A stretch of DNA of 33,597 bases, taken from positions 1 to 33,597 of the forward strand of contig JACRLQ010000044.1 in assembly GCA_016215155.1 (NCBI GenBank), read 5' to 3'. Position 1 is the first letter of the stretch; each line of letters starts with the position of its first letter. The DNA comes from Nitrospirota bacterium (GTDB lineage Bacteria > Nitrospirota > Thermodesulfovibrionia > Thermodesulfovibrionales > UBA6898). Below the pieces are notes generated by a model. It saw only the letters and a list, made by a program, of their open reading frames with translations, was not told where the DNA came from and ran no database searches. Position numbers and translations under genes: made by a program. This document shows, piece by piece, positions 3,555-33,597 of this stretch.

Positions 3555-4655
3555 ATGGCTTTAAGTATCGGTATCGTCGGACTTCCCAATGTGGGGAAGT
3601 CTACACTTTTTAACGCGCTTACAAAAAATCAGATCGCGGTCGCGGCAAATTATCCTTTTTGCACCATAGAGCCTAACAAGGCGATTGTAGCAGTGCCGGA
3701 CAGGCGCCTGGACCAGTTATCGGACATCGTAAACCCCCAGAGGGTCCAAAATGCTATCGTCGAGTTTACGGACATCGCGGGACTGGTAAAGGGGGCCTCA
3801 AAAGGAGAAGGGCTGGGCAACCAGTTCCTTTCGCACATCCGGGAGACCTCGGCCATTGTCCATGTGGTGAGATGCTTTGAAGACGACGCGATTATACACG
3901 TTGACGGCACTGTGGACCCATTGCGCGATATCGAGGTGATAAACACGGAACTCGTCCTTGCCGACATCCAGACGCTCGAAAACAGGATAACGCGCCTCGA
4001 CAAACAGGCCAAAACAGACAAAAAACTCCAACCTCTCCTTGAAGTCTCAAAGAGGCTGCTTGACCACCTCAATACCGGCGCCCCTGCCATACTTTTTGCC
4101 GAAAAGGAATCCGAGATATTTACCGAGCTGACGAGGGAGACGAGGCTGATCTCCCTCAAGCCTGTCATATACGCCGCCAATGTCGATGAGGCGGGTCTCT
4201 CTGAAGACAATGAAAAAGTCAGGGCGGTCCGTTCGTTTGCGTCTGAGCATAATGCCGAAACCGTGAAGATCTGCGCCAGGGTCGAAGAGGAGATGGCCGG
4301 GATGAGCGATGCCGAACGCGCTGAATTTCTGGATTCGCTCGGCCAGTCCGAGGGCGGCCTCGACCAGATCATCCACCACGGTTATCACGCGCTCGGACTG
4401 ATCAGCTACTTCACGGCCGGGGTCAAGGAAGTGCGCGCCTGGACTATAGAACGGGGATGGAAAGCGCCCAGGGCCGCTGCTGTTATTCACGACGATTTTG
4501 AGCGCGGCTTTATCCGGGCCGAGGTCATGGCCTTCGAAGACTTTATTGAAGGCAGAGGCGAGGCAGGGGCGAGGACCGCCGGGAGACTCCGCACCGAGGG
4601 TAAGGAATACGTCGTCAACAACGGAGACGTGATGCATTTTCTGTTTAACGTATAA
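3555..4655 (+). CDS. ychF: Obg-family ATPase YchF/OLA1
   Basis: A 366-residue P-loop NTPase of the TRAFAC class that binds ribosomes and hydrolyses ATP in preference to GTP. The P-loop is GLPNVGKST (9-17), the Walker B-like segment is FTDIAGLVKGASKGEGLGNQ, and the base-specificity motif is NVDE (YAANVDEAG) in place of NKxD, the substitution that gives YchF its ATP preference. A coiled-coil segment lies around residues 130-175, and a C-terminal TGS domain ends at VNNGDVMHFLFNV. Length matches the family (about 363). AGGAG at 3542-3546 is the ribosome binding site. Confidence 0.97.
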   Translation: MALSIGIVGLPNVGKSTLFNALTKNQIAVAANYPFCTIEPNKAIVAVPDRRLDQLSDIVNPQRVQNAIVEFTDIAGLVKGASKGEGLGNQFLSHIRETSAIVHVVRCFEDDAIIHVDGTVDPLRDIEVINTELVLADIQTLENRITRLDKQAKTDKKLQPLLEVSKRLLDHLNTGAPAILFAEKESEIFTELTRETRLISLKPVIYAANVDEAGLSEDNEKVRAVRSFASEHNAETVKICARVEEEMAGMSDAERAEFLDSLGQSEGGLDQIIHHGYHALGLISYFTAGVKEVRAWTIERGWKAPRAAAVIHDDFERGFIRAEVMAFEDFIEGRGEAGARTAGRLRTEGKEYVVNNGDVMHFLFNV

Positions 4656-4750
4656 GGGCGCGCCCCGGGAACATCCGGCTGAAAGATATTTGTTGAACTT
4701 CCCCTCCGTTGGTGATAACCTGTAATCAGGAAAACTATTAAGGAGGCGAT

Positions 4751-4948
4751 ATGTTTAAAGATGACGACAATAAAGGCGCGGAGATACTGGTTTCTTTTCT
4801 TATCGGCGGGATAGTGGGGGCGGGCCTTGCTATCCTGTTTGCCCCCCAGTCGGGGAAAAAGACCAGGGCACAGATAGTCGATATGGCGGATGACATCAGG
4901 GATTCAGCCTCAGACTACGCAAAGAGGCTTAAGAAAAAGGTTTCCTGA
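4751..4948 (+). CDS. Small YtxH-family membrane protein
   Basis: A 65-residue protein with one hydrophobic segment rich in small residues (about 13-30, LVSFLIGGIVGAGLAILFAP) followed by the typical SGKKTRAQI and a charged helical tail. This is the YtxH layout: an N-terminal membrane anchor, a P-x-S-G-K/R-x-T-R motif, then an amphipathic helix. The function of the family is not established beyond a stress association in Bacillus. AAGGAGG is placed ideally before the ATG. It is separated from ychF by 95 bases and probably has its own promoter. Confidence 0.8.
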   Translation: MFKDDDNKGAEILVSFLIGGIVGAGLAILFAPQSGKKTRAQIVDMADDIRDSASDYAKRLKKKVS

Positions 4949-4983
4949 ACTTTGCCCTGCCTCCGGCGCCCTTTAATGCCTTA

Positions 4984-5027
4984 TCTACTGCGGGACTGCC
5001 ATCTGCCGCACGCGGTCCTGCAGTAGA
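4984..5027. terminator. Stem-loop between convergent ytxH-like and SurA-like genes
   Basis: TCTACTGCGGGAC (4984-4996) pairs with GTCCTGCAGTAGA (5015-5027), giving 13 pairs including one G-U, with an 18-base loop. It fills the 87-base gap between two convergent genes and may act in both directions. There is no strong T-tract on either side, so the terminator call is moderate. Confidence 0.45.
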
Positions 5028-25262: not shown

Positions 25263-26570
25263 CTACATCGTATATCCGCTTTCTCCGTGCTGGCTTAGAT
25301 CAAGCCCTTCGAACTCGTCTTCGGGACTAAGCCTAAGGCCGATAGTCCAGTCGATAAGTTTAAGGATGACCGCCGTGACTATAAACGAATATACGACAGT
25401 TACCGCTATACCGGTTGCCTGTGTCACCAGAGTTCCGGCGTTTCCGTATAACAGTCCGTCCGCTCCAGCCGGGTTTATGAGCTTGCTGGCCAGAAAGCCC
25501 GTGGCCAGAGTACCGATTATCCCGCCGACCCCGTGCACCCCGAAGGCGTCGAGAGAATCATCGTACCCCAAGCGGCTTTTCATGTTAAGCGATAAATAGC
25601 AGACCGCCCCCGCGAGGACACCGATCGACATGGCGGAAAGCGGACTTACAAACCCGGAGGCCGGAGTAATGGTCGCAAGGCCCGCTATCGAACCGGTCGC
25701 CGCGCCGAACATCGTGGGCTTCCCCCTGTGCAGCCACTCGATGACGACCCAGACAAGCGTCGCGGTAACGGCTGAGGCATGAGTAGCTACAAACGTAGTA
25801 ACGCTCAGAGTGCCGGACGAAAGAGCGCTTCCGGCGTTGAACCCAAACCAGCCGAACCATAGCAGACCGGCCCCGACAACCGTCATCGGCAGGTTATGGG
25901 GCGTCATGGCGTCGTGCATGTACCCCTTACGCTTACCGATAATGACGGCAGCGGCAAGGGCCGAGATACCGGATGTGACATGCACTACCACACCGCCTGC
26001 AAAGTCGAGAAGACCCATGTTCTTCAGCCATCCACCGGTCCCCCATACCCAGTGAGCGACAGGGTCATAGACAAGGGTGGTCCATGCTAGTATAAAAACA
26101 AGGAAAGCGGAAAACTTCATCCTCTCGGCGATTGCTCCCGAGATAAGCGCCGGGGTTATTACCGCGAACATCATCTGATAGACCATAAAGGCCATGTGCG
26201 GCACCGTAGCGGCATAGTCAGGGTTTGGCAGAAGGCCGACCCCGTTGAGGCCTATCCAGTCGAGATTTCCTATAATACCCATAACGTCAGGGCCGAACGA
26301 CAGGCTGTAGCCGCAGAATATCCACTGGACTGACACAAGAGCTATTGCAACATAACTCTGCATATATGTGCCGAGTACGTTTTTTCTTCTGACCATGCCT
26401 CCATAGAACATCGCCAGCCCAGGCGTCATCAGCATTACAAGTGCCGTCGAAACCAGCACAAAGGCCGTGTCCGCGGCATCGACCTTTACGCCGGTGTCTG
26501 CATTCACATTTAGAGGCAAGATAAGAGCCAGAACTGCCAACAGAAATAAACAAAAAAATATTTTTCTCAT
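25263..26570 (-). CDS. amtB: Ammonium transporter AmtB
   Basis: An inner-membrane channel of 435 residues. ATG 26570 was chosen over 26591 because AAGGAG stands 8 bases before it and the product begins with a clean signal sequence (MRKIFFCLFLLAVLALILPLNVNA), as in other Amt proteins. About 11 membrane helices follow. Pore signatures include ALVSVQWIFCGYSLSFG, the first pore His in DPVAHWVWGTGGW and the second in FGVHGVGGIIGTL. The C-terminal tail ends LRLSPEDEFEGLDLSQHGESGY, the conserved cytoplasmic segment that contacts PII. No glnK is adjacent, though glnD is in the window. I saw no sigma-54 promoter in the 284-base gap upstream. Confidence 0.97.
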   Translation of the reverse strand: MRKIFFCLFLLAVLALILPLNVNADTGVKVDAADTAFVLVSTALVMLMTPGLAMFYGGMVRRKNVLGTYMQSYVAIALVSVQWIFCGYSLSFGPDVMGIIGNLDWIGLNGVGLLPNPDYAATVPHMAFMVYQMMFAVITPALISGAIAERMKFSAFLVFILAWTTLVYDPVAHWVWGTGGWLKNMGLLDFAGGVVVHVTSGISALAAAVIIGKRKGYMHDAMTPHNLPMTVVGAGLLWFGWFGFNAGSALSSGTLSVTTFVATHASAVTATLVWVVIEWLHRGKPTMFGAATGSIAGLATITPASGFVSPLSAMSIGVLAGAVCYLSLNMKSRLGYDDSLDAFGVHGVGGIIGTLATGFLASKLINPAGADGLLYGNAGTLVTQATGIAVTVVYSFIVTAVILKLIDWTIGLRLSPEDEFEGLDLSQHGESGYTM

Positions 26571-26840
26571 TTTTTGCTCCTTATAACCCAATAGTAAATT
26601 GTTATCAAGATAGCGAAAACCATGCCTGCTAAAATATCTCTATTTTTCAAGGAGATACGACCAGCCTATTATATCTCTGTCATACATATTTGTAGCCTTT
26701 CCGTTATTGAGAGCATAATTTTCAATAAAATTAACAGGTTATAAAGATTTTCTACAATTTTGTATTTAATACATTTATGTAGGAGTGGCGCTTTGCTCCT
26801 TGAGTTGCTGCAGACACAACCTAAACCCTGAATTTTAGAC

Positions 26841-26869
26841 TTGACATCATCATATCATTATAATATTAT
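26841..26869 (+). promoter_or_regulatory. Strong sigma-70-type promoter of the GntR-family gene
   Basis: Consensus TTGACA (26841-26846), a 17-base spacer, and TATTAT (26864-26869). Only 6 bases separate the -10 element from the ATG at 26876, so the predicted transcript starts at or next to the start codon and no ribosome binding site is visible. This suggests a leaderless message. The rest of the gap 26571-26840 is AT-rich with no gene or other clear motif. Confidence 0.7.
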
Positions 26870-26881
26870 ACTAATATGATG
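26848..26881. promoter_or_regulatory. 34-bp near-perfect palindrome over the GntR promoter and start codon
   Basis: CATCATAT (26848-26855) and ATATGATG (26874-26881) are exact reverse complements, and the centre TATAATATTATA (26859-26870) is itself a perfect palindrome on the same axis; only the two 3-base linkers (CAT and CTA) break full symmetry. It covers the spacer, the -10 element and both candidate ATGs. This is the expected position for an autorepressor site of the GntR-family protein encoded immediately downstream. Confidence 0.65.
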
Positions 26882-27637
26882 CATTCTGAAACACCAGCGT
26901 TGCAATTTAATACAATCGACCGGTTTAATCGCGAAAAACTCTATATCCAGCTGACCAGGGTCTTTCTTGACGAGATACACTCAAAAAGATGGAAGCTCAA
27001 TCAGAGGATACCCTCTGAGGATGAACTCTGCAAACATTACAATGTCAGCAAGATTACGGTCAGACAGGCCATAAGCAACCTCGTAGCGGACGGGTACCTG
27101 ATGAAAATTCAGGGCAAGGGAACGTTCGTGACGAGCGTATTGCCCGTCGTCGGCCTTGCGATGAAGACAAGATTTACGGAGGAGATGTTCGGTAAGGAGG
27201 TGATGGCGGAGAAGGAGATAATTTATAAGGGTATAAAGGAGCCGGGCCCGGAAATACGAGGATATCTTAATACGAGCGACGAAATCTACCAGATAGTCTG
27301 CAGAAGGCTGGTCAACAAGCAGCCGGCATATTTGGATGAGTCTTACATCCCCTATTTCATGCTGCCGGGGATAGAGACCCTCGATATAGCGGCCATGTCG
27401 CTCTACTCATTTCTGCAGGAGCACGGCGTGAAGAAGATATTCAGGGTAATACAGACCATCGAGGTCCAGGCGGCCTCTGAGGACCTGTCCCGGCACCTTG
27501 ATCTGATTGAAGGCGTCCCGGTACTGGTCGTCCACAGACTGCTTCTGAGTTCCGACAACATGCCTGTGGGCTATACACGATTTCTTGGAAGAAGCGATAG
27601 ATACAAGTTTCAGTCCGACTTTGAAAGAATACGTTAA
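26876..27637 (+). CDS. GntR/HutC-family transcriptional regulator with UTRA domain
   Basis: A 253-residue cytoplasmic repressor-type regulator. The winged-helix domain (about 20-88) shows LYIQLTRVFLDEI, then NQRIPSEDELCKHYNVSKITVRQAI and the wing GYLMKIQGKGTFV. A UTRA ligand-binding domain occupies about 105-248 (YQIVCRRLVNKQPAYLDESYIP, GVPVLVVHRLLLSSDNMPVGYT, then RSDRYKF), the HutC subfamily layout. Two consecutive ATGs (26876, 26879) are possible starts; neither has a Shine-Dalgarno. Only 29 bases separate its stop from the TSUP exporter gene, so it probably heads and controls that operon. The ligand is unknown; an organic acid or sulfonate would fit the transporter but is a guess. Confidence 0.93.
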   Translation: MMHSETPALQFNTIDRFNREKLYIQLTRVFLDEIHSKRWKLNQRIPSEDELCKHYNVSKITVRQAISNLVADGYLMKIQGKGTFVTSVLPVVGLAMKTRFTEEMFGKEVMAEKEIIYKGIKEPGPEIRGYLNTSDEIYQIVCRRLVNKQPAYLDESYIPYFMLPGIETLDIAAMSLYSFLQEHGVKKIFRVIQTIEVQAASEDLSRHLDLIEGVPVLVVHRLLLSSDNMPVGYTRFLGRSDRYKFQSDFERIR

Positions 27638-27666
27638 ATCATGATTGAGGAGGAGAAAAAATCTTT

Positions 27667-28641
27667 ATGACAGGAAAATACGTAAAAATCATTTCGCTCG
27701 TGGTGCTGGCCCTATCGGTCCTTGTTGCGACCGGGATTGCCCTGGCATCAGGCGATCCGTCCGGAGCGGCAGCGCCGGTCCAATCAGGTTCAAGCCTGCC
27801 CTGGTGGGCCTGGCCGTCCATTCTCTTTGTTGTAACCTTTGTGCTGGGTATCGTCGCGGTGCTCGGGGGGGTCGGAGGAGGAGTGCTCTTCGTCCCCATA
27901 ATAGGCGGCTTTTTCCCCTTTCATATCGATTTTGTAAGGGGAGCGGGGTTACTTGTCGCGCTTGCGGGCGCCCTTGCCGCCGGTCCCGGCCTGCTGAAAA
28001 AAGGCATGGCCGATCTGAGGCTGGCCCTGCCCGTGGCCCTGATAGCCTCTTCATGCGCCATAGTAGGCGCGATGCTGGGCCTGGCCCTGCCGGCCAATGT
28101 CATCAATATCGCACTGGGAGGCACAATCCTAGGTATAGTAGGCATAATGATCGTGGCAAAAAAATCCGAATATCCTGAGGTAAAACAGGCCGACAACCTC
28201 TCAACCGCCCTGAGGATCAGCGGCATATATCATGAGGTCTCAACCGGGCAGGACATAAACTGGAAGATCCATAGAACACCGCAGGGGCTTGCCACCTTTA
28301 TCCTCATTGGCGTAATGGCCGGCATGTTCGGACTTGGCGCAGGATGGGCAAACGTCCCTGTTCTTAATCTTATGATGGGCGCGCCGCTTAAGGTATCCGT
28401 GGCGACCAGCAAGTTCCTTCTTTCGATCACCGACACATCCGCGGCCTGGATATATGTCAATAACGGCGCGGTGCTTCCGATGATGGTCGTACCATCCATT
28501 ATCGGCATAATGCTCGGCTCGATCGTCGGCGTGAAAATTCTTGCCACTACAAAGCCGGCCGCGATCCGCTACATGGTCATCGGGCTGCTGCTGTTTGCAG
28601 GGCTCCGGGCGCTTCTGAAGGGCCTCGGCATCTGGAACTGA
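27667..28641 (+). CDS. TSUP (TauE/SafE) family anion exporter
   Basis: A 324-residue membrane protein. An N-terminal hydrophobic segment (about 7-27, ending ALAS) may be a signal or first helix. The first TauE/SafE repeat begins WWAWPSILFVVTFVLGIVAVLGGVGGGVLFVPI, a glycine-rich motif typical of the family, and a second repeat begins GVMAGMFGLGAGWANVPVLNL. Around eight helices in total flank a soluble loop (about 160-200). Members export sulfite, sulfoacetate or related organosulfur anions, or take them up; the substrate here is not readable. GGAGGAG lies somewhat far (about 14 bases) from the ATG. DUF1634 and UspA genes follow closely. Confidence 0.92.
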   Translation: MTGKYVKIISLVVLALSVLVATGIALASGDPSGAAAPVQSGSSLPWWAWPSILFVVTFVLGIVAVLGGVGGGVLFVPIIGGFFPFHIDFVRGAGLLVALAGALAAGPGLLKKGMADLRLALPVALIASSCAIVGAMLGLALPANVINIALGGTILGIVGIMIVAKKSEYPEVKQADNLSTALRISGIYHEVSTGQDINWKIHRTPQGLATFILIGVMAGMFGLGAGWANVPVLNLMMGAPLKVSVATSKFLLSITDTSAAWIYVNNGAVLPMMVVPSIIGIMLGSIVGVKILATTKPAAIRYMVIGLLLFAGLRALLKGLGIWN

Positions 28642-28669
28642 CAACTCATATACTCTAAAGGAGATAATC

Positions 28670-29086
28670 ATGAACGATAAATTAAAGGCAACGGAAGAAC
28701 AGCTGGCATACGCCAAGCTTCTGGATTTGGGCATGAAGGCTGGTATAATCCTCCTTTTCATCACATTTGTCCTGTACGTATTCGGAATTCTCACCCCGCA
28801 TCTGCCCGTCAATGACCTGCCGAAATACTGGTCCATGTCAGTGAAGGATTACCTTAAGGCTACCGACATACATACAGGGTGGTCCTGGCTCTATATGCTC
28901 GGCAAGGGTGATTTCGTTAATTTCCTTGGCATCGCCTTTCTCTCCGGCATCACCATTCTATGCTACATCAGGATCATCCCGATATTTATTAAGAAAAAAG
29001 ACACCGTCTATGCCGTGTTTGCGGTCATAGAGGTACTGGTGCTGGTGCTTGCCGCATCGGGCCTGCTCAAATCAGGAGGACACTAA
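28670..29086 (+). CDS. DUF1634-like three-helix membrane protein
   Basis: A 138-residue protein with three hydrophobic helices at about 24-45 (GMKAGIILLFITFVLYVFGIL), 82-104 and 114-133, and a short soluble loop between the first two. Size, topology and its position directly after a TSUP gene fit DUF1634, a family often encoded beside TSUP exporters and of unknown function. AAAGGAG precedes the ATG. It ends 1 base before the UspA gene, so translation of the two is probably coupled. It is possibly an accessory subunit of the exporter; this is inferred from context. Confidence 0.72.
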   Translation: MNDKLKATEEQLAYAKLLDLGMKAGIILLFITFVLYVFGILTPHLPVNDLPKYWSMSVKDYLKATDIHTGWSWLYMLGKGDFVNFLGIAFLSGITILCYIRIIPIFIKKKDTVYAVFAVIEVLVLVLAASGLLKSGGH

Positions 29087-29087
29087 T

Positions 29088-29537
29088 ATGACGGATTCAA
29101 CAGCCTGTCCGATCACCGGACTCAAAAAGATCCTTTATTCAACAGACGGTTCGCTTCATAGCGAAAAGGCCTTAAAAGAGGCGGTCAATATGGCGAAGAC
29201 CTGCGGCACGAAGCTTTATGTGATAACGGTCGTGGATGTGAATCCCGAATACGCGACCATGGCCCCGAATGTTATCGAGAGGGCCGAAAAAGAGGCCGGG
29301 GAACTCCTTGAAGAGGTCAGAAAGTGTGCTGCGAAGGAAGGCATCGATGTCGAATTGATCATGCACGAAGGCGACGAGCCCTGGAAGTTTATCGTCGAAG
29401 AGGCAAAAGAAAAAAACGTCGATATGATAGTGATGGGCAGCCACGGACGCACGGGCCTGGCCCGGCTGCTTATGGGAAGCGTCACGGAAAAGGTGATCGG
29501 ACATGCGCCCTGCAAGGTGCTGGTGGTGCCGGCCTGA
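29088..29537 (+). CDS. Universal stress protein, UspA family
   Basis: A 149-residue cytoplasmic protein. ATG 29088 was chosen because AGGAGG lies just before it, and the frame upstream overlaps the previous gene. It has the Usp fold signatures: ILYSTDGSLHSEKALKEAV at the start, a central helix-rich part, and the ATP-binding G-x2-G-x9-G-[ST] motif in MGSHGRTGLARLLMGSVTEKVI, followed by CKVLVVPA. It is the last gene of the gntR-TSUP-DUF1634 unit, before a strong terminator. It probably binds ATP and modulates stress survival or the transporter; the role is inferred. Confidence 0.93.
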   Translation: MTDSTACPITGLKKILYSTDGSLHSEKALKEAVNMAKTCGTKLYVITVVDVNPEYATMAPNVIERAEKEAGELLEEVRKCAAKEGIDVELIMHEGDEPWKFIVEEAKEKNVDMIVMGSHGRTGLARLLMGSVTEKVIGHAPCKVLVVPA

Positions 29538-29569
29538 TTTTTCAAGTCCGATACGCTTTATAATCTCAC

Positions 29570-29598
29570 AAAAAACCCCGCAAAAAGCGGGGTTTTTT
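29570..29598. terminator. Intrinsic terminator after the UspA gene
   Basis: AAAAAACCCCGC (29570-29581) pairs perfectly with GCGGGGTTTTTT (29587-29598) around a 5-base A loop. The symmetric A and T tracts would allow termination in both directions. Confidence 0.93.
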
Positions 29599-29653
29599 GC
29601 CCATATACCCGATCAATCCTCACAGGATAATAATCCGGCCCACATTAAAGTAT

Positions 29654-29682
29654 TTGAAACTCGTATGCCGGTTATGTAGAAT
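29654..29682 (+). promoter_or_regulatory. Sigma-70-type promoter of the hybrid histidine kinase
   Basis: TTGAAA (29654-29659), a 17-base spacer, and TAGAAT (29677-29682), with 9 bases to the ATG at 29692. The predicted leader is only about 2-4 bases, and no Shine-Dalgarno is present. Confidence 0.55.
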
Positions 29683-29691
29683 GTAATTGAT

Positions 29692-32493
29692 ATGCCGGAC
29701 AAAAAACTAAGACAGAAGGCTGCCCAGAAGAAAAAAGACGAAAATCCGGCAGCGCGGCAGTCCCAGCCGGTGAAGGAGACTCAGAAACTTCAAAAGAGTG
29801 TGTCTCAAACTAAAGAGAAAAAGGAACCCTTCAACCTTTGCGAAGAACGCTGGCGCTATCTGCTTGATACCTCTTCGGCCTGGATCTGGCAGACTGATGA
29901 GAATATGCGTCATATCTATACAAATGCATTCGTGACAAAATGTCTTGGGTACGAGCCTGATGAGTTTCTTAATTTTGATATCCTGGAATTAGTCCATCCC
30001 GACGACCACGTTATTATGAAGGGGATTGTGGAGACCGCCACTGGACAGAAAAAGGGCTGGTCCAATGAAGTGCTCCGCTGGAGACATAAAGACGGCTCAT
30101 GGCAGTTTATAGAGACGAGCGGTTCCCCGCTCTTTGACAGTTCCGGCAAGTTTATGGGACTTCATGGCGTTGACCACGATATCACGGAGCGCAGACAGGC
30201 CGAGATTGCGCTTCGCGAAAGCGAGAGCAGGACGCGGAGCATCATAGAGTCGATACCTCTGGGTATGCATATGTACCGTCTGGAACCCGATGGCCGCCTT
30301 ATATTTACCGGAGCAAATCCGGCGGCTGACCGGATACTGGGTCTTGACAACCGCATATTTATCGGCAAGCCCATCGAGGAGGCCTTTCCGCCATTGACGA
30401 ATACCGATATACCTGAGCGATACCGGGAGGTTGCCCTTTCCGGAAAGGCATGGAAGAAGGAAGATGTCGAGTATGAGGGAGATACCATCAAGGGTGCTTT
30501 CGAGGTCCACGCGTTTCGAACCGCTAACAACTGCATGGTCGCGGCATTCGAAGATATCAAGCACCGCAGGCGCAATGACGCGGAGTTAAGGGAAAAGGAA
30601 CTGAAGTACCGCACACTCTTCGAGTCCGCTAATGACGGCATATTCATTTATGGCAATACGGGGTTCATAGACTGCAACCAGCGGGGCGCTGAAATGTATG
30701 GGCTCCCGAAAGAGAGGATCATCGGACGTTCTCCCGGAGAGTTTGCGCCGGAGCGGCAGCCCGATGGAAGGCTTTCGTCCGAGGTTGCAGATGAAAAGAT
30801 CCGGCTGGCGCTTAACGGCGTCCCTCAGGTCTTCGAGTGGCAACCCCTGCGCGAGGATGGAACCCCTTTCGACGTGGAGATCACCCTGAACCGGCTTGAG
30901 CTTAAGGATTCAGTCTGCCTTCAGGCCATAGTACGGGACATTACCGAAAGGAAAAAGGTCGAAAATGCCCTAAGAGAAAGCGAAGGGCTGGTAAGGTCCA
31001 TAGGTAATAATCTGCCCAACGGCATGCTCTACCAGATCATTCGCAGTGTGGACGGCACGAGGAGGATGTCTTACGTCAGCGAAGGGGTACGCAAGCTGTA
31101 TGGCTGCTCACCCGAGGAGGCTATGGCCGATCCGAACCTTATATATGGTCGAATAGCAGAGGAAGACCGTCAGCGGCTTTGGGAAGAAGAAGAGGCGGCA
31201 TTCGCCTCATTCACCAATTTTTATACCGAGGCCAAAATGGTCAACCCTGACGGGCGTATTCGCTGGTCATCGTTCGCGTCAAGTCCCCGGAGACTTCAGG
31301 ACGGATCAACCTGCTGGGACGGAGTTGAAATTGAAATTACCGAACGCAAGCAACTGGAAGAGGAACGTCTAAAATCTCAGAAACTGGAATCCATTGGCAC
31401 TCTTGCCGGCGGCATAGCCCATGACTTCAATAACCTGCTTCAGGGCGTGTTTGGATACATCTCGATGGCAAAGATCACCTTTGATCAGAAGGACAAATCG
31501 CTTGCCATGCTTAAGCAGGCAGAAGAGGCCCTTCATATGTCAGTCAATCTCGCCGCCCAGCTCCTGACCTTCTCAAAAGGCGGCAAGCCGGTTAAAAGGC
31601 TGATCAGACTTGAAACGGCAATCGAAAATGCCGCGAGGTTCGCCCTAAGCGGCTCTCATTCGGACTACAGGCTGGAGATTGCGCCGGACCTATGGCCTGT
31701 TGAGGCTGACGAGGGGCAGTTGGCGCAGGTCATTCAGAACATCGTTCTGAACGCGAACGATTCGATGGCTGGAAACGGCACTGTCTTCATAAGGGCCGGA
31801 AATGTCCATCTCCAGCGCGGAAAAAACGTTAGACTGCCTCAGGGGGGCCGGTTCGTGCGCATAGATATTGAGGATTCCGGAATAGGCATATCAGGGCAGA
31901 CTTTGGAAAAAATCTTCGATCCGTATTTCACAACCAAGCAGAGGGGAAGCGGCCTTGGGCTTGCAACATCCTACTCTATAATAAAAAACCATGGCGGCCT
32001 GATCGATGTTAAATCTGAAATTAACAGGGGCTCTACCTTCGTCATCTATCTTCCTGCCGCGGCTGGTGAAGCGCATGAGTCCGGGACCGCTTCTCCCGTT
32101 GTCAGGGCCGGCAGCAGAAAAGCCAGAATACTTCTGATGGACGATGAACAGATGGTCAGGACCGTCGCCCGCGAAATGCTCGCCGCTTTGGGGCATGACG
32201 TAGTAAGCACCGAAGACGGCAGAAAAGCGATTGATCTTTTTCGGCAAGAAAGGGAGGCCGGCAGGCCTTTTGATCTGGTTATCCTCGACCTCACGGTTAA
32301 GGGCGGAATGGGAGGAGAAGAAGCTATCGCAAGGATTCGGGACATCGACCCCAACGTAAGGGCTGTAGTATCGAGCGGTTATTCCGATAACCCGGTAGTT
32401 GCAGACTATCATAAATACGGGTTTTCAGCCGTGCTGAGTAAACCCTACAGCATCGACGCACTAGAGGACTGCCTAAATATGCTCGTAACCTAG
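29692..32493 (+). CDS. Soluble hybrid sensor histidine kinase with four PAS domains and a receiver
   Basis: A 933-residue protein without membrane helices. A basic, low-complexity start (about 1-47) leads to four PAS/PAC units: about 50-165 (ending VDHDITERRQ), 172-292 (ending FEDIKHRRR), 300-422 (ending VRDITERKK) and 430-552 (ending EIEITERKQ). The kinase core has the phospho-acceptor His in GGIAHDFNNLL (H577), the N-box QNIVLNANDSM, and G-boxes DSGIGIS and RGSGLGLATSYSIIKNHGG. A C-terminal receiver has MDDEQ, phospho-acceptor D866 in LVILDLTVKGGMGG, and the Lys in LSKPYS. It senses a cytoplasmic or diffusible signal. No separate response regulator or output gene is adjacent. The stop codon lies within an inverted repeat that begins at 32492, so the last residues may have been altered by insertion of that repeat. 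Confidence 0.95.
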   Translation: MPDKKLRQKAAQKKKDENPAARQSQPVKETQKLQKSVSQTKEKKEPFNLCEERWRYLLDTSSAWIWQTDENMRHIYTNAFVTKCLGYEPDEFLNFDILELVHPDDHVIMKGIVETATGQKKGWSNEVLRWRHKDGSWQFIETSGSPLFDSSGKFMGLHGVDHDITERRQAEIALRESESRTRSIIESIPLGMHMYRLEPDGRLIFTGANPAADRILGLDNRIFIGKPIEEAFPPLTNTDIPERYREVALSGKAWKKEDVEYEGDTIKGAFEVHAFRTANNCMVAAFEDIKHRRRNDAELREKELKYRTLFESANDGIFIYGNTGFIDCNQRGAEMYGLPKERIIGRSPGEFAPERQPDGRLSSEVADEKIRLALNGVPQVFEWQPLREDGTPFDVEITLNRLELKDSVCLQAIVRDITERKKVENALRESEGLVRSIGNNLPNGMLYQIIRSVDGTRRMSYVSEGVRKLYGCSPEEAMADPNLIYGRIAEEDRQRLWEEEEAAFASFTNFYTEAKMVNPDGRIRWSSFASSPRRLQDGSTCWDGVEIEITERKQLEEERLKSQKLESIGTLAGGIAHDFNNLLQGVFGYISMAKITFDQKDKSLAMLKQAEEALHMSVNLAAQLLTFSKGGKPVKRLIRLETAIENAARFALSGSHSDYRLEIAPDLWPVEADEGQLAQVIQNIVLNANDSMAGNGTVFIRAGNVHLQRGKNVRLPQGGRFVRIDIEDSGIGISGQTLEKIFDPYFTTKQRGSGLGLATSYSIIKNHGGLIDVKSEINRGSTFVIYLPAAAGEAHESGTASPVVRAGSRKARILLMDDEQMVRTVAREMLAALGHDVVSTEDGRKAIDLFRQEREAGRPFDLVILDLTVKGGMGGEEAIARIRDIDPNVRAVVSSGYSDNPVVADYHKYGFSAVLSKPYSIDALEDCLNMLVT

Positions 32494-32539
32494 CAGGCTG
32501 TTGAAAAAGTGCTTTCAGATGCTTTTTCAACAGCCTGCT
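32492..32539. repeat. Perfect 18-bp-arm inverted repeat at the kinase 3' end
   Basis: AGCAGGCTGTTGAAAAAG (32492-32509) and CTTTTTCAACAGCCTGCT (32522-32539) are exact reverse complements around a 12-base spacer. The kinase stop TAG (32491-32493) overlaps the first arm. It would form a strong hairpin and may double as a terminator for both converging genes. The GCAGGCTGTTGAAAAA string is one I associate with dispersed repeats or insertion-sequence ends in environmental Gram-negatives; this needs a search. No second copy was noticed in the window. Confidence 0.85.
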
Positions 32540-32564
32540 GGGGGAAACGGAACTTAACTGGAAA

Positions 32565-33272
32565 CTATGCCGCTTTTTTCAAATGGTGCGCCTTCTGTTT
32601 TTCATCGTGTGAACCCAGGTCGATCAGCTCGAACCTGCCGGTGCCGAGATAGTATTCGGCCCCGATAACTTTGAGCTTCCCTTCATGCACCAGTTCTCTG
32701 ACTATTTTGCTCTTCATAACATCCTTATATGTGTTTTTAACATTCTCCTGGACCGCGATGTTCAGGGTAGCGCCGGGATCTTTACTGGCCTTTTTCGCTG
32801 TACTGACTGCCGGCATGATCTTCTTCAGTATCGCCCCTATGTTCCCCCCGGGGCTTCCCTTGGCATCCATAGCGGCCTTGACCGCCCCGCATGATTCATG
32901 TCCCAGTATGACAAGAAGCGGGGTATGAAGATGTTCGACCCCGTATTCAATACTGCCCAATGTAGTCGGCTCCACAACATTCCCCGCGACCCTCACTACG
33001 AATATATCTCCCAGCCCCTGATCGAAAATAATCTCCGGCGCCACCCTCGAATCCGCACAGGAAAGGACCGTTACAAATGGATTCTGTCCCTTTGTAAGGT
33101 CCTGCCTCCTGCTTTCCCCAATATCTTTTTTCGTCATTTCTCCGTACATAAACCTCTTGTTTCCCTCGATCAATTTCATCAGAGAACCCTGCCCTGCCTC
33201 ATTGCCGGCGTATACAATCCCGACAACCGCAATCAAAAAAGCAACGATAACCAAAGCCCTTTTTTTACTCAT
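32565..33272 (-). CDS. Exported beta-class carbonic anhydrase
   Basis: A 235-residue zinc enzyme interconverting CO2 and bicarbonate. It starts with a Sec signal (MSKKRALVIVAFLIAVVGIVYA, cleavage after about residue 22), so it acts in the periplasm. Zinc ligands are C72, H125 and C128 with the catalytic dyad D74 and R76: CADSRV and GHESCGAV are the beta-CA signatures. The C-terminus is basic (HHLKKAA). Most beta-CAs are cytoplasmic; exported forms are known in several lineages. It converges with the kinase gene and diverges from the partial gene at the right edge. Confidence 0.94.
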   Translation of the reverse strand: MSKKRALVIVAFLIAVVGIVYAGNEAGQGSLMKLIEGNKRFMYGEMTKKDIGESRRQDLTKGQNPFVTVLSCADSRVAPEIIFDQGLGDIFVVRVAGNVVEPTTLGSIEYGVEHLHTPLLVILGHESCGAVKAAMDAKGSPGGNIGAILKKIMPAVSTAKKASKDPGATLNIAVQENVKNTYKDVMKSKIVRELVHEGKLKVIGAEYYLGTGRFELIDLGSHDEKQKAHHLKKAA

Positions 33273-33416
33273 CGATAAATCCCCTTTATAAAATATAGTC
33301 AGGTAACTCTCATGGCATTATAACATCGGTAAAGATATCACCTGAACTGGAAAATATCAAGCGCTACCTGTGCCAAATTGAAACAGTTAAGCCTCCGGTC
33401 ATATGACTATTGATTT

Positions 33417-33433
33417 AACCCCAAAGAGGGGTT
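33417..33433 (+). promoter_or_regulatory. Small hairpin overlapping the ribosome binding site of the last gene
   Basis: AACCCC (33417-33422) pairs with GGGGTT (33428-33433) around the loop AAAGA. The G-rich arm is also the only Shine-Dalgarno-like sequence (AGAGGGG) before the ATG at 33445, so pairing could hide it. Alternatively it is simply a weak terminator followed by a T-rich stretch. Confidence 0.35.
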
Positions 33434-33444
33434 TAATATTTTTC

Positions 33445-33597
33445 ATGAGATATATCTTGTGTTACTGCATTTTAATCATCCTGGCTTCGCGCAGCAACAA
33501 GCCGGCCTACCCTTTGGTTCCCTTCAACGACAACCGGATCTCTGTTGATATTCGCAAGCTGAAGGAAGGACTGCCTGAGTTTTATTCTGCGGCGGTA
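33445..33597 (+). CDS. Start of an exported protein, possible DUF2318 family (partial)
   Basis: An open frame of 51 codons runs off the right edge. It begins MRYILCYCILIILASRS, a short signal-like hydrophobic segment, followed by YPLVPFNDNRISVDIRKLKEGLPEFYSAAV. The pattern of a strand, [IV]-x-[IV]-x2-L-x-[ED]-G, then FY resembles the start of DUF2318 domains (exported Fe-S or metal-binding proteins with a later cysteine cluster), but the diagnostic cysteines would lie outside the window. The start is reasonable but its ribosome binding site is 13 bases away. Confidence 0.5.
   Translation, partial: MRYILCYCILIILASRSNKPAYPLVPFNDNRISVDIRKLKEGLPEFYSAAV

Follow-up and report, generated by a model that had tools for sequence, protein, structure and literature searches.

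A candidate leaderless promoter–operator module at the start of a GntR/HutC-type regulator gene in Nitrospirota

1. Introduction

The described operon that most closely resembles the locus analysed here is acuR–acuI–dddL of Rhodobacter sphaeroides. According to the report on this operon, the transcript mapped by 5' RACE begins at the AUG and carries no Shine–Dalgarno (SD) sequence, and an inverted repeat overlaps the promoter, forming an operator whose mutation leads to derepression (PMC3017554). Moreover, the same text describes that the leaderless regulator is translated less than the downstream genes and that this arrangement has been reported in other bacteria (PMC3017554). At the protein level, a counterpart is found in NagR/YvoA of Bacillus subtilis, which controls GlcNAc genes. 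According to the corresponding paper, NagR is an operator-bound repressor whose effectors abolish repression and whose residues Arg38 and Arg48 read two guanines (PMC4333415).

The locus considered here lies in a 33,597-bp stretch of DNA from a Nitrospirota bacterium (henceforth, the window), whose contig belongs to a 3.43 Mb assembly. On the evidence of sequence comparison, we consider it highly likely that positions 26841–26881 constitute the promoter–operator of a self-repressed leaderless operon with the gene order gntR–tauE–orf138–usp.

2. Promoter and Palindrome in the Window

The interval 26841–26881 reads TTGACA, 17 bp, TATTAT, 6 nt and ATGATG, and comprises the following elements:

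26841–26846, plus strand: −35 element TTGACA (promoter scan; TTGACA with a 17-bp spacer in 37 of 42 orthologous sites)
26848–26881, no strand assigned: 34-bp near-palindrome, proposed operator with flanks (axis between 26864 and 26865, 15 of 17 pairs)
26855–26865, plus strand: TCATTATAATA, the most conserved stretch of the candidate operator, invariant or nearly so (per-column counts, 30 orthologues)
26858–26871, no strand assigned: TTATA-N4-TATAC, putative 14-bp dimer core common to paralogues (deduced axis, with competing axes)
26864–26869, plus strand: −10 element TATTAT, within the palindrome (sequence, promoter scan and orthologue scoring)
26876–26878, plus strand: start codon ATG and predicted transcription start, +1 being the A of ATG (6 nt after the −10 element; no SD-like motif)
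26879–26881, plus strand: second ATG, in frame with the 253-aa open reading frame, as is the ATG at 26876

The promoter matches the consensus at 11 of 12 letters and is the top one among the ten matches returned by the promoter scan for 25500–33597, an interval where promoter-like sites are not significantly more frequent than expected by chance (10 vs. 7.6 ± 2.8). The arms of the palindrome (26848–26864 and 26865–26881) have 17 nt each and are complementary at 15 of 17 positions without a gap. This is the sole gapless 15/17 inverted repeat of the window. Dinucleotide shuffling of the whole window (60 times) and shuffling of the local 500 bp (3000 times) never yielded one of that quality. A sequence-only reading of this DNA had described a 34-bp palindrome over the promoter that spans spacer, −10 element and both ATGs; the search confirms the palindrome, and its arms do cover these elements. 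The interval that had been given for it, 26841–26881, is right in that promoter, palindrome and ATGs all fall within it, but the palindrome itself begins at 26848, whereas 26841 is the start of the −35 element. A further inverted repeat of the window (32494–32537, 16 of 17 pairs with a gap of 10) lies just 3' of a PAS histidine kinase gene and is probably a terminator.

3. The GntR Regulator and Its Predicted Operon

The genes of the predicted operon are the following:

26876–27637, plus strand: GntR/HutC-type regulator of 253 aa with winged helix-turn-helix (wHTH) and UTRA domains (PF00392, 2.6e-15; PF07702, 9e-25)
27667–28641, plus strand: TauE/SafE-family transporter of 324 aa (PF01925, 1.1e-34), with the SD sequence GAGGAGGAG at 27647–27655
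28670–29086, plus strand: 138-aa protein without a family match, with the SD sequence AAAGGAG; it adjoins TauE in relatives too
29088–29537, plus strand: universal stress protein (PF00582, 4.5e-37), with the likely ATG at 29088 after CAGGAGG (TTG at 29049 in the list of open reading frames)

Both domains of the regulator score well above their cut-offs, namely the N-terminal GntR wHTH with 56.3 bits (cut-off 27) and the C-terminal UTRA effector domain with 87.6 bits (cut-off 23.8). Among the named HutC-type equivalogs (HutC, PhnF, TreR, PhnR and others), none of the 21 listed families reaches its NCBIfam cut-off, the best score being 125.8 bits against 269. The nearest named relative found is a counterpart with 84% identity in the Nitrospirae MAG SCQH01000093.1, while, among solved structures, NagR/YvoA is nearest in sequence, aligned over residues 21–251 (E 7e-23). 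The pair of base-reading arginines of NagR is absent from the window protein, where Asp49 and Lys59 take the positions of Arg38 and Arg48; among 75 homologues, the first position is Asp or Glu in 68 and the second is Lys in all. This absence is not family-defining and leaves membership unaffected. AraR retains one of the two arginines, and the pair is not universal in the GntR family (PMC4333415). The replacement of both residues is in line with a candidate operator that is AT-rich and lacks GG.

Strong SD sequences precede the tauE, orf138 and usp genes of the window, while gntR is without one. The 324-aa type of TauE adjoins gntR at 31 of the 41 loci with at least 52% identity. A second type of about 415 aa is found at seven (L076, L078, L085, L089, L112, L113 and, via the overlapping locus L048, L099), being followed at the first six by a 242-aa protein and then a stress protein. 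At one locus (L086), gntR is followed by genes for a CBS protein and a DASS symporter, and the other two (L097 and L114) end too early to show the neighbour. Several side observations concern these neighbourhoods. The stretch L086:1398–6013 encodes the CBS protein, the DASS symporter, an LCIB-type carbonic anhydrase and an ArsB/NhaD-like transporter; a carbonic anhydrase is also located nearby in the window (32565–33272, minus strand); and, in G331 (L112:7090–7270), a first-type TauE gene is divergent from gntR, with the operator in between.

TauE-type and DASS-type proteins carry anions, and TauE proteins are named after sulfite export. Since such anion-type transporters accompany the regulator, and an outer-membrane porin is associated with the f11 paralogues (Section 6), a small anion, or else a derivative of one, is the probable GntR ligand.

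4. Orthologues and Conservation of the Module

A protein search of 150 relatives yielded matches in 78 of them, and a search of 295 phylum genomes yielded matches at 1e-40 in 44. With an orthologue threshold of 52% identity or more, 31 orthologues from the former and five from the phylum (G162, G163, G316, G331 and G339) make up 36 protein-found orthologues, and six more (G156, G157, G158, G160, G164 and G165) raise the total to 42; since these six came only via the DNA pattern, they are not independent for site counts. Two fragments, G010:C157 (25 residues) and G089:C2 (59 residues), were dropped before counting, and L014 is counted among the 42 sites but is absent from the 75-row table and the tree.

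The core CATTATAATA[TA][TC]AT, or a one-letter variant of it, is present in 36 of 36 protein-found orthologues and in 42 of 42 when the pattern-found ones are included. TTGACA stands at a distance of 17 bp in 37 of the 42 sites, with one change in two more and at 20 bp in another two; L114, which was read separately from the 41 sites covered by this scoring, has no recognisable −35 element. The mean pairwise identity amounts to 0.886 for the −35 element, 0.872 for the spacer and 0.874 for the −10 element, compared with 0.302 for the 40 nt upstream, 0.487 for the 6 nt before the ATG and 0.443 for third codon positions (60 codons in 38 genes, four of the 42 having no anchor). Thus, the 17-bp spacer is kept like the −10 element, far above the upstream sequence and the third codon positions, as expected of an operator. 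We know of no reason for a plain sigma70 spacer to be conserved like its hexamers and, therefore, a protein probably reads it. A search for the palindrome near orthologues, which the sequence-only reading had put forward as a check, supports that reading: the promoter geometry, the operator core and the 6-nt distance between −10 element and ATG are kept, with the qualification that the full 34-bp symmetry is weaker in the family, with a mean of 70% of pairs.

5. Symmetry and Extent of the Candidate Operator

Across 30 orthologues, none of the other centres tried is as symmetric as the axis of the window palindrome, at which 70% of pairs are complementary in 17-bp arms. The window, with 15 of 17 pairs, exceeds this family mean because ATG codons make up part of its outer arms and the 6 nt ahead of the start codon vary among orthologues. 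Conserved as a unit is a core of about 16 bp, while the palindrome's outer arms lack strict conservation. No clear compensating changes were seen in the covariation across the palindrome in these 30 orthologues, the freely varying column pair 13/34 being complementary in 20 and not in 10.

A possible but rather doubtful explanation is that autorepression is real while the 34-bp palindrome arises in part from the combination of an AT-rich promoter with ATGATG, so that the operator would be shorter or on another axis, e.g., ATTA/TAAT in the spacer or tandem half-sites. The start codons in the outer arms and the variable 6 nt before them are compatible with it, as are the competing axes, since several score alike with 8-bp arms (0.63–0.69) and the orthologue L012 has a 15/17 palindrome on another axis. 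However, the 34-bp axis outscores all other centres tried, and the bases conserved in the paralogues follow TTATAA on its right-hand side (ATTATAAaGAcaTgA), so that the centre of their conserved block comes to lie close to the axis of the window palindrome. Given that the outer arms owe some of their symmetry to ATG codons and that the axes compete, the 34-bp axis is probable, not proven.

6. Paralogues, the f11 Element and the Tree

Distant paralogues across the phylum bear the TTATAA core at their own gene starts. Among the 34 paralogues with less than 52% identity, ATTATAA occurs upstream in 26 (shuffle mean 3.3, maximum 9 of 300) and TTATAN4YATR in 18 (shuffle mean 1.1, maximum 4), both patterns having been picked after inspection and the 34 rows being related to each other. 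In the family f11, the same core is located about 17 nt after TGGCAY-N5-TTGC, which we take to be a sigma54-type promoter by its consensus.

Genomes of the family f11 contain a 33-bp element, TTATAAAGACATGAANTAATAAGCATATRARGA, behind a sigma54-type promoter; it was located at 14 places (L158–L171) in 7 of 150 genomes, with none for the reversed-pattern control. Eight of the 14 elements overlie the start codon of GntR (CATATGA). The other six precede another gene and show CAYATAA at the same place, the gene start lying 89–154 nt from the beginning of the element. Three of these six downstream products were scanned, giving Porin_O_P in one and DUF3373 in two, and the other three resemble the scanned ones over stretches of about 80–140 residues. 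Since the element keeps its letters where the start codon is lost, it is to be read as a binding site and not as coding sequence. It provides the best evidence that clan members control their own genes via a site at the gene start, and the GntR paralogue and the porin-like gene apparently form a two-target regulon. Three of the 12 places of the pattern that joins the sigma54-type promoter to TTATAAAGA (L152, L156 and L157) are at unrelated genes, probably by chance. Separately, at L082:5494–6771 (minus strand), a gene for a sigma54 activator (NtrC-like, with AAA and Fis-type HTH domains) is found just upstream of a GntR paralogue (4291–5016), and both stand between two TauE operons.

In a maximum-likelihood tree of 75 proteins, the 41 leaderless-type rows fall on one branch with a support of 97/98, and this branch sits among paralogues with different-looking promoters. 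The simplest reading would be one single change to the leaderless form.

7. Sites Elsewhere in the Genomes

Up to three mismatches, the own genome has a single site of the 29-bp module, at gntR, and no second one. An own-genome regulon was also sought with a looser 16-mer and two mismatches and was rejected, since the 13 + 11 matches against 8 + 10 in the control are near chance. Order-wide, the pattern has 11 matches off GntR genes, one of which is the opposite strand of an orthologue's palindrome, a number similar to that of the reversed control (7 in 176 genomes), and the zero-mismatch matches are at GntR genes wherever checked. In G094 (L126:3040–3063), an operator core is located 185 bp before a TauE-type operon without an adjacent GntR gene, and may be a site acting in trans, the remnant of a lost regulator or a chance match.

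This distribution bears on a further explanation, in which promoter and leaderless start are real while the conserved element serves a different regulator as its operator. Sequence conservation cannot name the binding protein, but the restriction of the element to gntR in its own genome, the zero-mismatch matches at GntR genes and the core variants that GntR paralogues bear at their own starts make this explanation very unlikely. An activator role for GntR at this site is formally conceivable.

8. The Predicted Leaderless Start

The ATG is found exactly 6 nt after the −10 element in 35 of 36 protein-found orthologues and in 41 of 42 overall, the exception being L113 (9 nt), and none of the 42 sites has an SD-like motif in the 20 nt before the gntR ATG. 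The second codon is ATG in just 25 of the 42 orthologues, so the first ATG is the constrained one. With the ATG only 6 nt past the −10 element, the A of the AUG should be the first nucleotide transcribed. The claim that a consensus promoter directs the start to the ATG is thus upheld as a prediction, given the 11 matching letters and the 6-nt distance. Another alternative, which we consider very unlikely, is that transcription begins upstream, gntR has a leader and the proximal promoter is unused; two sites scoring 10 of 12 each (TTAACA...TACAAT at 26731–26758 and TAGACT...TATAAT at 26836–26864) could serve it, but the sequence 5' of TTGACA is unconserved (0.302 identity), SD-like motifs are lacking at all 42 sites and the distance from −10 element to ATG is fixed.

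In about 334 kb of the own genome together with the window, leaderless-like promoters with at least 9 of 12 letters precede 11 of 248 ORFs, and those with at least 11 precede three, including gntR (null of 0.9% and 0.04% per position, respectively, with up to four starts tried per ORF). These 11 ORFs rule out that the leaderless start is unique in the genome; leaderless starts are a minority in it. Two further candidates in the own genome, L141:10428 and L151:9086 (both plus strand), have promoters of 12/12 and 11/12, a −10 element 5–8 nt before the ATG and no SD sequence. The leaderless message had been called unusual, which holds insofar as such starts are a minority, but other leaderless-like starts are present and the acuR operon supplies a close experimental precedent (PMC3017554). 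Among the open-licence literature entries listed, no leaderless autoregulated GntR/HutC operon was found.

9. Proposed Mechanism

In the self-repressed leaderless operon that we favour, transcription by RNA polymerase would begin with the A of the first ATG, and translation of the gntR mRNA would be that of a leaderless message. A GntR dimer would bind the TTATA-N4-TATAA-type core across spacer and −10 element, excluding RNA polymerase, until a UTRA-bound ligand, probably an anion linked to the TauE/DASS substrate, releases it. Moreover, with gntR as a leaderless first gene, little repressor would be made compared with the products of the transporter genes, an effect that has been reported for acuR. 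The idea of the sequence-only reading that a bound repressor shuts out RNA polymerase is very probably right.

10. Significance

Similar arrangements of promoter, operator and start are already known for other repressors, and leaderless regulators are usually described singly. Here, orthologues from three families of the own order, and from another three elsewhere in the class, have the leaderless arrangement as a fixed feature. We see about even chances for a broader interpretation, namely, a phylum-wide clan of GntR/HutC regulators of anion-type transporters in which an AT-rich operator stayed fixed at the start of the regulator's own gene and the promoter type beneath it changed, being sigma54-type with a short leader in one family and sigma70, fused with the start codon, in the leaderless clade of the window. 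Operator, −10 element and AUG would then form a module of about 41 bp in which no function changes alone, with the guanine-reading arginines absent to match. What the analysis adds is a module fixed across families, with a core that is part of a wider clan of own-start operators and a promoter type that changed beneath it. Since the leaderless module is fixed and related paralogues are not leaderless, the timing and route of the change from leadered to leaderless can be read from the tree. Furthermore, an uncharacterised HutC-type branch of Nitrospirota-type bacteria is thereby provided with a candidate operator. The association of this branch with transporters of the TauE/DASS kind and with universal stress proteins, as well as with outer-membrane porins in one family, narrows the search for the ligand.

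11. Comparison with Known Systems

As in acuR, the window regulator gene heads its own operon, the −10 element is TATTAT, and an SD sequence is missing for the first gene and present for later ones (PMC3017554); an inverted-repeat candidate operator likewise lies over the promoter and is conserved at orthologues. The two systems differ in that the −35 element of acuR is TTGATT, its operator reads TAATAGAC-n6-GTCTATTA and its co-inducer is acrylate (PMC3017554). In addition, the acuR genes encode enzymes, whereas a transporter gene comes next to gntR in the window. AcuR belongs to the TetR family, whereas the window protein is GntR plus UTRA by Pfam; hence, the latter would work alike without being a member. 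With NagR/YvoA, the window protein shares the wHTH and UTRA architecture, although its candidate operator is AT-rich without GG and Asp49/Lys59 replace the arginines (PMC4333415).

Other repressors share the leaderless message. PxpR of Corynebacterium glutamicum is, like the window protein, a GntR-type repressor from a leaderless gene, but it is divergent from its target operon and autoregulation was judged unlikely there (PMC13274462). CvkR of Anabaena is a MerR-type repressor with a leaderless mRNA that differs in family and targets (PMC9938897), as do lambda cI and the tetR product of Tn1721, which are also made from leaderless mRNA (PMC9938897, PMC3017554).
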